Source: a virus. From it: 37,351 nucleotides of DNA. The notes below the pieces were generated by a model. It was not told the DNA's origin, made no database searches, and saw nothing but the letters and a program-made list of their open reading frames with translations. Numbering within the stretch: the first letter of the stretch is position 1; every line of letters begins with the position of its first letter. Where the stretch lies: the IMG/VR virus record IMGVR_UViG_3300008952_000141, positions 1-37,351 of that record, one strand, 5' to 3'. This document shows positions 35-4,891 of the stretch, piece after piece. Made by a program: the position numbers and the translations under genes.

Positions 35-1027
35 TTAAACATTCCATGACTCCTTTTGATCATTATAATGACCTTCAATAAACCTAATTTCTGAAATCAA
101 ACGATTCCACTCTTTCCTAAACTTAGTATTGCCGTTCTCTTCTTCTTCTGGTGGGTTCGTCCCATTTAAATCATAACGATATGCTTGGTAGATCGTATCG
201 TTTGGATGATACTCGATATGCTCATCACTATCATCGTCAGGCCAGTAAAGGTTCGTGCCTGTTCCGGCTCTAACATTCTTGATATAATGCCAAGCCGGAC
301 TCTCAAGCGTCTTTGAACCGATGACTGCAGAGGCTTCGGGTAGTACCTTGATGATTTCCAGTGCCATCTTGGCGGCAATAAGATTGTCAATTGATGGTTG
401 AATCTGCTTATCTGAGCGCTGCTTTATAAAACCAATAATGTCCTTTAGGTTAAATCTCCCGAAGTAAAACGTTGAAAGACACTTGGGTAAAATAGTCCGC
501 GCATCCATCATGGAAATTTGACGTGTGTCGACCATATCGGCGTAAAGTTTCTTTGCGTCTTCGACATGACGCTGCCATCTTCGATATAGCTCTGGACTAT
601 TTTCTACCGAACTGGGTACTAGACACGGCTCGTGATGCAAAAATCTATCTCCAGTGCACTGCGCAGCAAACGAGCCAGCTCGGTGTCGAATAAGATGAGT
701 AACAGTTTGAAGATCAATACCCGCAAACTTAAACGTGAAACTAAAAATTTCCATCGGTGTTGGCAAGGCTCGAAAGCACAACACGTCTTCCAAGTTTTCG
801 CTTAACTCTGATTGATGTACGCCAGTAGGATCAGTATACTCCGGAGTATCAGCCCAAGTTGCCTTGACATAGCGCCAAGCCACTTCTCTCATCTGCTTAG
901 CTGTAGGATGATCTACTAGCTCGATCTTGAGTGCATCAAGATCATTAAGAAATTCAGTAGTAGGTTCTTCATCGAATCGAAGCGTCATCGGAAGATCAAC
1001 AGGTGTTAGATTAGTGTTTTGAGGCAA
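35..1027 (-). CDS. thyX: Flavin-dependent thymidylate synthase ThyX
   Basis: Converts dUMP to dTMP using FAD, NADPH and methylene-tetrahydrofolate. The ThyX signature begins RHR at residues 114-116 inside a hydrophobic helix. The C-terminal half carries ARTILP (Arg177), NLKDIIGF (from Asn193) and KQR (Arg204), matching the family substrate-binding region. At 330 residues it is longer than typical ThyX (about 220-250), with extra sequence at both ends. In the RHRX7S motif the last position is Cys124 instead of Ser; that Ser is reported as not essential in other ThyX enzymes, so activity is plausible. The start is TTG, chosen because a clear AAGGAG lies 5 nt upstream (1033-1038); the next in-frame ATG is inside the protein. 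It is the last gene of the repair and nucleotide-pool block and has its own promoter candidate. Confidence 0.93.
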   Translation of the reverse strand: MPQNTNLTPVDLPMTLRFDEEPTTEFLNDLDALKIELVDHPTAKQMREVAWRYVKATWADTPEYTDPTGVHQSELSENLEDVLCFRALPTPMEIFSFTFKFAGIDLQTVTHLIRHRAGSFAAQCTGDRFLHHEPCLVPSSVENSPELYRRWQRHVEDAKKLYADMVDTRQISMMDARTILPKCLSTFYFGRFNLKDIIGFIKQRSDKQIQPSIDNLIAAKMALEIIKVLPEASAVIGSKTLESPAWHYIKNVRAGTGTNLYWPDDDSDEHIEYHPNDTIYQAYRYDLNGTNPPEEEENGNTKFRKEWNRLISEIRFIEGHYNDQKESWNV

Positions 1028-1091: not shown

Positions 1092-1466
1092 TTAGTAATT
1101 CATCTGAATTCTTTCATGAATGATTTTGTCTTTCTTGCAGTAGGCTTGGTAAAGATCGTCTGCATCGAAGCCTACAAGAATCAGCAATGAAAAAAAGTAA
1201 TTAAATGCATCAACAACTTCTTCAAGAAACTCTTCACTATTGAACTCAGAAATCTCGGTCTTTCTATGAGGCTTCCAGTTCTTTAGGTGCTGGAGCGCTT
1301 CGAACATTTCTTCTACCCCCCTTAACGCGATATCTCGAACATATTGCTGATCTTTTTTGCTTGTCAGATCCAGGGGCCACGGAGGATTCGCAGACTTATT
1401 AGAATTCTGCAGCTCAATCATAAACCGCTCTCTTAGCTCAAAAATTTGTGTCAGACGATCATCCAT
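1092..1466 (-). CDS. All-alpha NTP pyrophosphatase (dimeric dUTPase / MazG-like)
   Basis: A 124-residue helical protein. It shows the two metal-binding acidic motifs of the all-alpha NTP pyrophosphatase superfamily: EMFE (Glu53, Glu56) and EEVVD (Glu83, Asp86). The end, around DADDLYQAYCKKDKIIHER, is typical of phage dimeric-dUTPase-like members. The likely role is hydrolysis of dUTP (or another NTP) to the monophosphate, giving dUMP to the adjacent ThyX and keeping uracil out of DNA. I chose the ATG at 1466, which follows GAGG about 11 nt upstream and starts just after the stop of the preceding gene; a longer in-frame start at 1532 would overlap that gene by about 60 nt. Family membership is fairly clear; substrate (dUTP versus dCTP or others) is inferred from context. 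Confidence 0.75.
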   Translation of the reverse strand: MDDRLTQIFELRERFMIELQNSNKSANPPWPLDLTSKKDQQYVRDIALRGVEEMFEALQHLKNWKPHRKTEISEFNSEEFLEEVVDAFNYFFSLLILVGFDADDLYQAYCKKDKIIHERIQMNY

Positions 1467-1470
1467 AATT

Positions 1471-1824
1471 TTACCAGTCCTCAACATCCACTTCACCTCG
1501 AGTGATAGGGTCGTTCCAAATATCTTCTTCATCTTTTTCGTCAGTTATGACTGACTCTAGCTCTACTTTTTCCATCTCTTCTGCAAACATCTGCTCATAT
1601 GTGGGCATTAATTCTACAGCTTGATCCATTAGATTATCTAAATTCTTGTCAAAATTTACTAAGTACTCTGACGTTGGATCTAGTGTATTTGCATCATTTA
1701 CTTCAAAACAAATCATTCTTAGATTGTCAACGACATCAGTCCCGGTTAGAATTGCTACTTGTAGTGTTTTTGCAATCAACCCTATTGAATCATCACTTAA
1801 TTTAAAAATCTTCATATCAGACAT
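1471..1824 (-). CDS. Small acidic protein of unknown function
   Basis: A 117-residue protein I do not recognise. The N-terminal half is mixed hydrophobic and polar (IAKTLQVAILTGTDVVDNL, about residues 17-35). The C-terminal third is strongly acidic, with many Glu and Asp and few basic residues. No Cys motif, signal peptide or membrane segment is seen. The ATG at 1824 follows TAGGAGA by 5 nt, so translation is well supported. The stop codon of the Fpg/Nei gene overlaps this Shine-Dalgarno, suggesting translational coupling. It sits between a DNA glycosylase and a dUTPase-like gene, which hints at a link to DNA or nucleotide metabolism but proves none. Confidence 0.75.
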   Translation of the reverse strand: MSDMKIFKLSDDSIGLIAKTLQVAILTGTDVVDNLRMICFEVNDANTLDPTSEYLVNFDKNLDNLMDQAVELMPTYEQMFAEEMEKVELESVITDEKDEEDIWNDPITRGEVDVEDW

Positions 1825-1833
1825 TTTCTTCTC

Positions 1834-2637
1834 CTACGTTTGTCTTTTAGGCGACCACCATGTGGTTCGCCCATCTTTGGTTTGCTCAGATGATACGGGA
1901 TTTCCGTCCGGATCAACTTTTTTATTATACACAATAAACTTAGATCCGTATTCACCCGGATTTCCATTAAAATCAGAGTAAGATTGAATCGTTGCGCCGC
2001 CAGACTGAAAACTCTCAACCATTATTTGTCTGATGCTTTTGTTTAAAATTATCAGGTCTTCATCAGAGATTCCTGAAACAATTCTATGAGGAGAAAGCTT
2101 GGACAACCACAAAGCGTCTGCTTTGATATAATTGCCCACACCGGCGACGACCGACTGATCCATAAGTGCCTGGACTATCGTCTTTTTATTTTGAGTCCGC
2201 AATCTACTAATAAACACATCGTTTGGGCACTCTTCACTCAGTAGATCAGGCCCTAGGGATTGTAATTTTTTAATCAAAGCCTCTTTTCCCTTGACAAATT
2301 TTAATGTTCCAAAGTTTCTAATATCATTATAAAACACGGAACCATCGTTTAAAACAAATTCAACTCTTGTGTGCTGCTCTTTTTGATCTGACCATTTCCC
2401 GGTCATACCCAATGTAGACCAAATTGAATTTTGCTGCTCCAAAAGAATGTATAGAAATTTTCCATGAGCACCCGCACCCAAGATATGCATGGGTAAATCA
2501 TCAGAAAATCTTTTAAATTCTACTGGCGTTTTTTTAAGATAACGGCCGGACTTAATTGACACTTCTAACAAAGTCCGCCCAGAAACCCTTTTTGCAAGGT
2601 CAACAGCATATCTTCTTACTTCTGGTCCTTCAGGAAT
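1834..2637 (-). CDS. Fpg/Nei-family DNA glycosylase/AP lyase, zincless finger, probable ATT (AUU) start
   Basis: Base-excision enzyme that removes oxidised bases and nicks the abasic site. Numbering from the ATT codon as Met1, the sequence opens M-PEGPEV: family chemistry needs Pro2 as the N-terminal nucleophile, with Glu3. Other matches are HGKFLY (Lys60), YNDIRNFGTL, and the H2TH segment DQSVVAGVGNY-IKADAL. The C-terminal region keeps DGRTTWW, with the finger Arg, but has no cysteine where Fpg/Nei bind zinc, as in the zincless fingers of NEIL1, plant FPG and mimivirus Nei1. The only other upstream start is GTG at 2649, which would bury the catalytic Pro behind four residues. GAGGTG lies just before the ATT. 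It is divergent from the metallophosphoesterase gene and heads the 3' leftward unit. Confidence 0.9.
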   Translation of the reverse strand: MPEGPEVRRYAVDLAKRVSGRTLLEVSIKSGRYLKKTPVEFKRFSDDLPMHILGAGAHGKFLYILLEQQNSIWSTLGMTGKWSDQKEQHTRVEFVLNDGSVFYNDIRNFGTLKFVKGKEALIKKLQSLGPDLLSEECPNDVFISRLRTQNKKTIVQALMDQSVVAGVGNYIKADALWLSKLSPHRIVSGISDEDLIILNKSIRQIMVESFQSGGATIQSYSDFNGNPGEYGSKFIVYNKKVDPDGNPVSSEQTKDGRTTWWSPKRQT

Positions 2638-2660
2638 AGTACACCTCACTTATGCTAAAT

Positions 2661-2688
2661 AGTATACTTACTATAACAGGATGTTCAA
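2661..2688 (-). promoter_or_regulatory. Putative promoter for the Fpg/Nei gene
   Basis: TTGAAC (2683-2688), 16 nt, TATACT (2661-2666) reads leftward into the glycosylase gene, placing a start about 17 nt before it. A promoter is expected here because the neighbouring gene is on the other strand. I found no convincing plus-strand promoter in the same gap. Confidence 0.45.
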
Positions 2689-3347
2689 TGAAAAGAATCA
2701 TTATCTCAGACACGCACATTGGAACAAAATTCTATAAGTCTGATGAGCTTTTGATATTTCTAAAGAACACGAATTGTGATGAGATCATTCTTGCCGGTGA
2801 CATTATCGACTTTATCAAAATCCCTGTTTTTACAAAGCGGTGCCTTGAAATTATCAAACAAGTTGGAAAATTTAAAAAAATAGTATACGTTGTCGGAAAC
2901 CACGACGAGAGTCTCTTGGGTGTTGTTGGTAAAAAAGTTCTTGGAGTAGAGTTTGTCAAACGTTATGATTTTGAAGAATCAGGTCGAAAGTTTCGTGTAG
3001 AACACGGAGATGCATACGATAAGGGTGCATTGCATAACAGAATTTTTGTCAAGTTTCTCTCAGTTATTCAAAATATGCTTGAATTCACTTTTAATTTTGA
3101 CTTTACAACATGGTGGACAGAAATCCAAATTAAGAAGCACAAGTTAAGATCTATCATTCATATTCTTCGACACCATCCAAAAGTTGATGTCTTTATCATG
3201 GGGCATACCCATATACCTGAGGCGTTGATATGGGTTGATGAGGATCAAAATATCAAGACGTATATCAATGCAGGTGACTGGGTAACTCACCAAACCTATG
3301 TTACTGTAACTGATGGAGTTGCTAGACTCTGCAAATTTGAAAGCTAA
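2688..3347 (+). CDS. Calcineurin-like metallophosphoesterase (LpxH-like)
   Basis: A 219-residue two-metal phosphoesterase. All motifs are present: SDTH (Asp8, His10), AGDIID (Asp38), GNHD (Asn71, His72), EHGD (His106) and GHTH (His173, His175). The EHGDAYD block and overall size are like the LpxH/UDP-2,3-diacylglucosamine hydrolase group, which cleaves a pyrophosphate in lipid A synthesis, but substrate cannot be read from motifs. The start is the ATG at 2688, with AGGA 6 nt upstream; an upstream in-frame start at 2652 lacks such a site. It is the only rightward gene in the window, divergent from Fpg/Nei and convergent on the lipoprotein gene, with overlapping stop codons. Its lone orientation suggests a moron-like insertion, possibly with independent expression. 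Confidence 0.85.
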   Translation: MKRIIISDTHIGTKFYKSDELLIFLKNTNCDEIILAGDIIDFIKIPVFTKRCLEIIKQVGKFKKIVYVVGNHDESLLGVVGKKVLGVEFVKRYDFEESGRKFRVEHGDAYDKGALHNRIFVKFLSVIQNMLEFTFNFDFTTWWTEIQIKKHKLRSIIHILRHHPKVDVFIMGHTHIPEALIWVDEDQNIKTYINAGDWVTHQTYVTVTDGVARLCKFES

Positions 3348-3707: not shown

Positions 3708-4142
3708 TTAAGTTTTTTCTTGATACATTCTTTCTAAAAAAGTACGGTAATTTACTAAAGCGCTGTCTTTTGGTGACACATCTCTCCACTGCCCCAGACA
3801 AAAGATTCGATAAGCATCTGAAGCATACTTTCCGATACCGTAGAGTACATCTGGATCTTCTTTCCAGTCTTTGTTTAGGTAATCGTTAGACATCTTAACA
3901 AGCGCAACAGAACGTCTCTCAGACAACCCTAGGGGTTGTATCATTTCCTGTATCTGCTTTGGGTCAGACATCGCCGCGCTTTGAGGATCTGGATACTTGA
4001 TAAAAAAATCCCACATATAGGGCTCCGCATGAACGCGTTTTGTTAGATTACAAAAAATACAAGCAACAAAGATTTTCCACGGATCTTTCCAGAGTTGTTC
4101 TTGTATTAATCCATAAGGTGACTTCGGTGGGATCCACATCAT
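3708..4142 (-). CDS. MBD4-like HhH-GPD mismatch DNA glycosylase
   Basis: A 144-residue helix-hairpin-helix glycosylase domain. From memory of human MBD4, its catalytic domain matches along the whole length: PPKSPYGLIQEQL, DPWKIFVACIF, a KYP turn, IQPLGLSERR, the hairpin LYGIGKYASDAYRIF (about 100-114) and SPKDSAL, with Asp126 at the catalytic position (MBD4 Asp560). MBD4 removes T or U opposite G, the products of 5-methylcytosine or cytosine deamination. There is no Fe-S cluster motif and no methyl-CpG-binding domain. The MBD4 finger position in NRT reads NLT here. The start is ATGATG at 4142/4139, without a clear Shine-Dalgarno. It follows the J-domain gene and lies two genes from a second glycosylase, consistent with a phage base-excision module. 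Confidence 0.85.
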   Translation of the reverse strand: MMWIPPKSPYGLIQEQLWKDPWKIFVACIFCNLTKRVHAEPYMWDFFIKYPDPQSAAMSDPKQIQEMIQPLGLSERRSVALVKMSNDYLNKDWKEDPDVLYGIGKYASDAYRIFCLGQWRDVSPKDSALVNYRTFLERMYQEKT

Positions 4143-4168: not shown

Positions 4169-4891
4169 TTACATATCTTCTGAGGGCTCAGTTAGCTTTT
4201 TTCTAATCCACGCAATAGACTTCCCTGGGTGATTGATTGGTCGTGACTTCTTCATTGCAGCTCCCGGAACAGTCCACCCTTTTTCTTTAATGAACACTCT
4301 TAAAATTTCCTGCTTTTGTTGAGTACTAGAACAGTGCCACTTCCAGAATAAGGTCGACTTGAGATTTTGTGTATCTTCAGCATATTGAGAACACTTTTGA
4401 TTTAAAATGCTGAAGATCGCATCGATATCAGGTAGTGAGATCTTTAGGTCGATAGCTATCATAATAACTTCTGCATAGTCACCTTCGGTATACGCTGATG
4501 CTGCTTCATTATAAAGATTTCCCTTTCTTTCTCTCTCGTCAGCTTCTTCTGATAGTAGCTTGTCAGGGTGCGCTTTGACTGAGATTTTCCTGTATAGTTT
4601 TTTTGCCCAGAGCGGGTGTTTTAAAACACACGCAGTTTCTGCGTCGATCTCTTCCCTGGTTGCCTCGTTTTCAGATTTTCTAGAGTCTGATGATTTTGTT
4701 TCGTCTCTTGACTTTATGCTATCAAAACTTTCATCTAAGTCAGAATCATATACATTTAATTCTGCTTGAATTGTTTTGATTTGAGACAAAACATCTAATC
4801 TTGCTGCATCGTGAAGTTCTTTTGTTTCAAAAAATTCTTCGCGAAGAAACTCTGTTTTGTGAACAATTTTTTTTGTTCTTCGGCGGGACAC
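4169..4891 (-). CDS. J-domain (DnaJ-like) protein
   Basis: A 240-residue protein. A J-domain spans about residues 95-145: the helix LWAKKLYRKISVKA is followed by the invariant HPDK (His108-Asp110), a loop, and a second helix around RERKGNLYNEAASAYTEGD. The J-domain stimulates ATP hydrolysis by Hsp70/DnaK, so this protein probably recruits the host chaperone. The N-terminal 90 residues are highly charged, and the roughly 95-residue C-terminal part is unlike the Gly/Phe, zinc-finger and client-binding domains of true DnaJ. Phages use J-domain proteins or the host DnaK system in replication-complex remodelling or virion assembly; which applies is unknown. Start ATG at 4891 abuts the stop of the small gene upstream. 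Confidence 0.85.
   Translation of the reverse strand: MSRRRTKKIVHKTEFLREEFFETKELHDAARLDVLSQIKTIQAELNVYDSDLDESFDSIKSRDETKSSDSRKSENEATREEIDAETACVLKHPLWAKKLYRKISVKAHPDKLLSEEADERERKGNLYNEAASAYTEGDYAEVIMIAIDLKISLPDIDAIFSILNQKCSQYAEDTQNLKSTLFWKWHCSSTQQKQEILRVFIKEKGWTVPGAAMKKSRPINHPGKSIAWIRKKLTEPSEDM

Follow-up and report, generated by a model that had tools for sequence, protein, structure and literature searches.

An MBD4-clade DNA glycosylase in a virus fragment and its phage family lacking the arginine finger

The stretch of DNA analysed here in full (37,351 nucleotides, referred to as the window) is a linear fragment of 37 kb from a virus, with genes for a class II ribonucleotide reductase, RecA-like and DnaB-like proteins and a DNA polymerase, and we are almost certain that one of its open reading frames, 4142..3708, encodes an HhH-GPD glycosylase of the MBD4 clade. 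Two features become visible only beyond the single window: the protein belongs to a large phage family that is without the Arg finger of MBD4 and, in this lineage, its gene heads a cassette with base-excision and nucleotide-modifying partners. Translation of 3708..4142 on the plus strand meets many stops and the frame lies on the minus strand, which the initial annotation had not given. The features to which we refer below are as follows.

3708..4142, minus strand: MBD4-like glycosylase, 144 aa, with its ATG at 4142 and a stop codon ending at 3708
1834..2649, minus strand: Fpg/Nei-type glycosylase-lyase (Pfam H2TH 1.4e-17, Fapy_DNA_glyco 2.1e-17), zinc-finger cysteines absent
1471..1824, minus strand: small conserved ORF, no Pfam family, found downstream more constantly than any other neighbour (in 17 of 45 representative loci)
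1092..1532, minus strand: MazG-type nucleotide pyrophosphohydrolase (phrog_12184 1.7e-16; dUTPase_2 just under the cut-off), kept in the cassette
35..1027, minus strand: divergent ThyX paralogue, 330 aa (Pfam Thy1 1.2e-17), with the motif RHRAGSFAAQCTGDR
4169..4891, minus strand: 240-aa protein, weakly DnaJ-like, kept in the cassettes of relatives
2652..3347, plus strand: metallophosphoesterase (Pfam Metallophos_2 1.7e-12), common to close relatives only

The MBD4 motifs occur along the full length of the protein in the order that had been listed for it, namely PPKSPYGLIQEQLW, DPWK, CNLT, PLGLSERR, GIGKYASDAYRIFC and SPKDSALVNY. In a phmmer search of PDB chains residues 1-138 match mouse/human MBD4 with E=1.4e-39, and all strong matches are to MBD4 (15 distinct sequences, E between 1e-39 and 2e-38), the next families being MIG (E=0.0018) and MutY (0.02). 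Because of these E-values, and because copies 70-76% identical to the window protein are found on independent contigs, a chance resemblance is excluded. A profile of the phage family, made from 45 diverse members, gives 185 bits for MBD4, as against 51 for MIG, 47 for Nth and 34 for MutY. The AlphaFold2 model of the 144-aa protein (pLDDT 96.9) superposes on MBD4 with Z 25.3 and 1.1 Å over 143 residues (0.8-1.3 Å and Z about 25 over the range of MBD4 structures), while MIG, MutY and Nth reach a Z of 13.5 or less with an rmsd of 4 Å or more. The label 'MBD4-like' in the initial annotation, which had proposed just such a profile and structure comparison, is thus borne out by sequence, profile and fold, MBD4 being the best match by far. 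Equally accurate was its description of a protein with neither a methyl-CpG-binding domain nor Fe-S cysteines, since the 144-aa frame comprises the glycosylase domain only and the C-terminal four-Cys Fe-S cluster is absent. It is true that relatives are annotated as ENDO3c or endonuclease III, and that the window protein matches Pfam HhH-GPD weakly (21 bits, cut-off 26) and NCBIfam nth far below threshold (21 bits, cut-off 212), so that automatic annotation is apt to leave the gene unnamed. The profile scores, the Z values and the missing cysteines nevertheless rule out an endonuclease III, MutY or MIG relative mistaken for MBD4, an error to which we attach a negligible probability.

Asp126, Tyr106, Gln14 and Leu33 of the window protein are the equivalents of Asp560, Tyr540, Gln449 and Arg468 of human MBD4, so that the catalytic Asp had correctly been described as kept. 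The equivalents of Asp560, Tyr540, Asp543 and Tyr566 are invariant in 87 of 87 sequences, the window included, and so, in all 85 sequences extending over them, are those of Gln449 and Asn467, and the window protein also keeps the intercalating Leu506/Leu508 positions. The change from NRT to NLT noted earlier is real and family-wide; the residue at the Arg468 position, in the 85 sequences covering it, is Leu in 49, Gln in 33, Met in 2, Cys in 1 and Arg in none. It does not follow the type of modification, as both Leu and Gln are found with dCMP-type enzymes. In human MBD4 the Arg468 finger pinches phosphates and recognises the orphan guanine, and its replacement by Gln or Leu abolishes activity or nearly so while Lys is tolerated (PMC12073362). 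The absence of Arg affects specificity, not the assignment to the clade, and since it extends over the whole family the phage enzymes must either detect the lesion in another way or act on another lesion. The second half of the earlier name, 'T/G mismatch glycosylase', stays a proposal: the T:G-sensing finger is missing throughout the family, and the residues found in its place inactivate human MBD4.

These very facts would also fit a glycosylase that has been retargeted through its Leu or Gln finger to another base, such as an oxidised or modified pyrimidine, or that only binds mismatches, and that is not a T:G enzyme. We consider this improbable, as the catalytic Asp, the Tyr and the base-reading Gln are invariant and as Leu and Gln are the natural finger residues of TDG and MutY (PMC12073362), so that a loss of activity is not implied. 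Human MBD4 acts on T, U and hmU opposite G (PMC12073362). For the phage protein the gene context suggests T or 5hmU opposite G as substrates, and going by its conserved residues it would flip a G-mispaired pyrimidine into an MBD4-type pocket where Asp126 would hydrolyse the glycosidic bond.

The family is widespread, with hundreds of copies in phages of oceans and fresh waters; among 600 candidates listed, alignment confirmed at least 577 IMG/VR stretches. Few phage relatives have names, these being Xanthomonas and Stenotrophomonas phages (Bosavirus and a relative), Janthinobacterium phage Donnerlittchen and cyanophage S-TIM54, and their proteins bear the annotations hypothetical, ENDO3c or endonuclease III. 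The 45 diverse members are all without a match to any PHROG, no informative family came from PHROGs, NCBIfam or PADLOC, and the open-access literature yielded no previous account of an MBD4 in phages. The gene can be lost, given that two phages with divergent ThyX carry degenerate or partial copies with stops nearby (G476:C1:15166-15414 and G455:C1:4745-4939). A search of GTDB with one narrow DNA pattern returned a single match, in a Candidatus Actinomarina MAG, where an intact gene with Met at the finger position (L087:5986-6375, plus strand), the only bacterial case found, is flanked by apparently bacterial genes; its product scores 179 bits and the other HhH-GPD proteins of the same genome 46 or less. 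A profile search of 396 Actinomycetota genomes gave no other match above 58 bits, and as other phyla were reached only by the one DNA pattern the claim is of rarity in bacteria and not of absence. Among predicted viral structures the only close match is an HhH-GPD protein of an insect baculovirus, Clostera anastomosis granulovirus A (BFVD U5KBB0), a eukaryotic virus that may have captured MBD4 independently.

Read in the direction of the gene, the window has the order MBD4-like, Fpg, small conserved ORF, MazG-type pyrophosphohydrolase and divergent ThyX. Inserted are a small ORF and the opposite-strand metallophosphoesterase, the latter probably no component of the repair module. The order from MBD4-like to divergent ThyX is repeated in L001, L018, L022, L026 and others, while L031, L037, L035/L509, L504-L508 and L510-L512 have a cassette, in some cases without Fpg, that closes with DnaE and a thymidylate-synthase homologue, not ThyX. 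In relatives the gene for the weakly DnaJ-like protein either precedes the MBD4-like gene or separates MazG from DnaE. The Fpg-type frame, whose TIGR00577 score of 164 bits lies below the cut-off of 203, is next to the MBD4-like gene in relatives as well, in unchanged order, and the two open frames overlap slightly in L022, L031 and L035. Fpg enzymes require a free N-terminal Pro. In L024 (8001-9236, plus strand) the MBD4-like and Fpg parts form one uninterrupted frame of 412 aa, which, given this requirement, points to an internal start or an altered lyase, unless the contig is in error. The Fpg frame of the window opens with GTG at 2649 on the minus strand and PEGPE follows an ATT codon (2637-2635), not ATG, with GAGGTG just upstream; translation may start, as is rare, at ATT, or the N-terminus may be longer, which would hide the catalytic Pro.

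The ThyX of the window (65 bits, Pfam Thy1) is about 100 residues longer than ordinary ThyX and has RHRAGSFAAQCTGDR in place of the usual RHRxxSxNExSxR. Divergent ThyX occurs in at least 168 viral stretches, with relatives in L001, L008, L018, L022 and L025 and a 48% identical protein in Geobacillus phage GR1. Four phages with divergent ThyX have a canonical ThyX too, so that in these it is not simply the thymidylate synthase. As an enzyme of the dCMP hydroxymethylase type fills its slot in sister cassettes, dCMP suggests itself as the substrate, and the window protein is a candidate dCMP-directed enzyme. An MBD4-like gene was present in 42 of 80 divergent-ThyX records, in 34 within 10 kb and in 8 elsewhere on the contig, with degenerate copies in 2 more. 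For records with canonical ThyX, retrieved with queries from MBD4-positive phages, the figure was 8 of 33 (7 intact); six of these eight also have a dCMP-type enzyme or divergent ThyX (Asp177 enzymes in G493 and G494, divergent ThyX in G476 and G587, matches to the dCMP-type profile in G593 and G588), and G594 and G596 lie outside this comparison.

The thymidylate-synthase homologues (TRANSFERASES) have Asp177, the residue of dCMP-type enzymes, in the MBD4-positive phages S-TIM54, YB23, G019, G021, G023, G028 and G033, as well as in AXL1, Donnerlittchen, G018 and thirteen further records. Among the homologues read in MBD4-positive phages, a set that leaves aside the TS-like genes of G022, the exception is G032, with Asn177 but also with a C5-methyltransferase. 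In marine homologues an Asp stands three residues before the catalytic Cys (19 of 19), which is the published mark of dCMP hydroxymethylases (PMC6400193), and for the one marine homologue compared the closest solved relative is T4 dCMP hydroxymethylase. At this C-3 position S-TIM54 has Cys and the Bradleyvirinae homologues have Asn, in line with the latter being methylases. AXL1 DNA shares with that of the 5mC phage Xp12 a resistance to restriction at sites containing G/C, and the AXL1 authors found gp65, which is the MBD4-like protein, otherwise only in Xp12 (PMC9206674). An MBD4-like gene was present in 14 of 42 Asp177 records (above 26 kb, query records removed), in ten of them within 4-8 kb, and in 0 of 50 Asn177 records, a set retrieved with E. 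coli ThyA; the resulting Fisher p of about 4e-6 calls for caution, given lineages that lack independence and an unmatched control set. The gene is missing from two-thirds of the Asp177 and half of the divergent-ThyX records, which are partly fragments, and the 37-kb window itself contains neither an Asp177 homologue nor a C5-methyltransferase. A C5-methyltransferase was rejected as a general partner, PF00145 being found in only 3 of 49 MBD4-positive records, and a reading in terms of 5mC only fails as a general one since the marine relatives carry the hydroxymethylase signature.

In a second branch, made up of cyanophage-type and freshwater contigs, the MBD4-like gene lies beside QueD-like, QueE-like and FolE genes. 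Such genes (QueD-like, QueE-like, GTP cyclohydrolase I) near the MBD4-like gene in the cyanophage-type loci L047-L086 hint at 7-deazaguanine chemistry. Neither a dCMP-type TS nor a divergent ThyX was found in four large cyanophage-type contigs read almost completely (G025, G034, G037, G039), which rules out a universal link to dCMP-type enzymes and caps our confidence in an account based on modified cytosine; in this branch either genes for modification have escaped recognition or the enzyme has a different task, for example U:G repair. The latter could be extended to the whole family, as a general U:G glycosylase standing in for UNG and unrelated to modified cytosine, the dCMP-type link then reflecting no more than nucleotide-metabolism cassettes shared in some lineages. 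Consistent with this, MBD4 accepts U:G (PMC12073362) and a UDG exceeds the cut-off in only 1 of 49 MBD4-positive records, whereby UDG is also dismissed as a phage partner. The association and adjacency with dCMP-type enzymes are, however, non-random, and hosts usually have a UDG of their own (13 of 14 control genomes above cut-off), so that we regard general U:G repair as rather unlikely.

We lean, with some reserve, toward repair of deaminated 5-modified cytosine in phage DNA as the function of the MBD4-like enzyme, a probable role because in this lineage the gene adjoins genes expected to make modified cytosine. Judging from gene context and specificity residues, the cytosine of the phage DNA is probably C5-modified, the modified nucleotides being supplied by divergent ThyX in the window or by a dCMP hydroxymethylase or methylase in sister phages. 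Deamination of 5-methyl- or 5-hydroxymethylcytosine would leave T or 5hmU opposite G, which the MBD4-like enzyme would remove from the phage's own DNA. With Leu or Gln in place of the guanine-sensing Arg finger, its way of discovering the mismatch must be unlike that of human MBD4. The adjacent Fpg-type glycosylase-lyase would then cut the abasic site and would also remove oxidised purines. Fpg enzymes possess AP-lyase activity. As MBD4 is monofunctional (PMC12073362), the two proteins could between them carry out the first two steps of base excision repair. Bacterial glycosylases that attack modified phage DNA do exist (PMC11078745, PMC13160076), and by analogy the phage enzyme might be a weapon of offence or counter-defence that excises modified bases from the DNA of host or competitor. 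This is very improbable, since Brig1 and Brig3 belong to the UDG superfamily and not to HhH-GPD, the putative target base would sit in the phage's own DNA and the cassette partners are genes of repair and nucleotide synthesis.

In a maximum-likelihood tree with HhH-GPD outgroups mammalian MBD4 falls inside the phage diversity, next to the window clade. The phylogeny of phage and eukaryotic copies that had been proposed thus yields a nesting in one tree, with phage monophyly still compatible: the constraint costs only 2.2 log units (p-AU 0.36) and is not rejected, and as eukaryotic MBD4 was sampled by two mammalian sequences only we leave the direction of transfer undecided. A more far-reaching proposal, which we put forward tentatively and think doubtful as a whole, is that divergent ThyX is a flavin-dependent dCMP methylase or hydroxymethylase interchangeable with the T4-type dCMP hydroxymethylase, that the MBD4-like and Fpg proteins form a dedicated repair module, with a non-Arg finger, for a genome of 5-modified cytosine, and that MBD4-type repair may have diversified first in phages, from whose family eukaryotic MBD4 may derive.

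Phages with 5mC or 5hmC in place of cytosine face a deamination problem at nearly every C, as vertebrate genomes do at 5mC. For such phages a widespread MBD4 of their own would point to a means of keeping mutation low, and it would provide a genomic marker of hidden cytosine modification in the virosphere. The family also supplies naturally occurring MBD4 enzymes whose finger is Leu or Gln, residues with which human MBD4 loses its activity. Its cassette makes the ThyX paralogue a candidate for a new way of producing modified cytosine, and it bears on the origin of eukaryotic MBD4.

Of the known systems the closest is the C-terminal domain of eukaryotic MBD4 (PDB 7kz1, 4e9g, 6vjw), to which the window protein is homologous over its full length with 45% identity and a fold within 1.1 Å, and whose Asp560, Tyr540, Gln449 and Leu506/Leu508 positions it keeps. 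It differs in lacking the methyl-CpG-binding domain, in having Leu for Arg468 (Gln, Met or Cys in relatives) and in being a stand-alone enzyme of 144 aa encoded beside Fpg and nucleotide-modifying genes. AXL1 gp65 and its reported Xp12 homologue (Bradleyvirinae, PMC9206674) belong to the same family. The authors who described the former saw in it no more than an ENDO3c protein whose active site was doubtful (PMC9206674); it shares the NLT finger and adjoins a nucleotide pyrophosphohydrolase and an Asp177 thymidylate-synthase homologue, but is 34% identical to the window protein, has a partner of the ThyA and not the ThyX type and is without an Fpg neighbour. The archaeal thymine-DNA glycosylase MIG (1kea), MutY and Nth share the HhH-GPD superfamily fold (Z 12.7-13.5), yet at 4-5 Å rmsd and at most 20% identity, and their Fe-S domain is missing in the phage protein. 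With regard to T4, homologues in sister cassettes carry the specificity Asp and hydroxylation signature of its dCMP hydroxymethylase and the MazG protein of the cassette could match the role of its dCTPase, whereas the window has a divergent flavin-type ThyX in the slot of the hydroxymethylase. Brig1 and Brig3, finally, are likewise glycosylases found where phages meet modified cytosine, but they are members of the UDG superfamily that act in bacterial defence (PMC11078745, PMC13160076).
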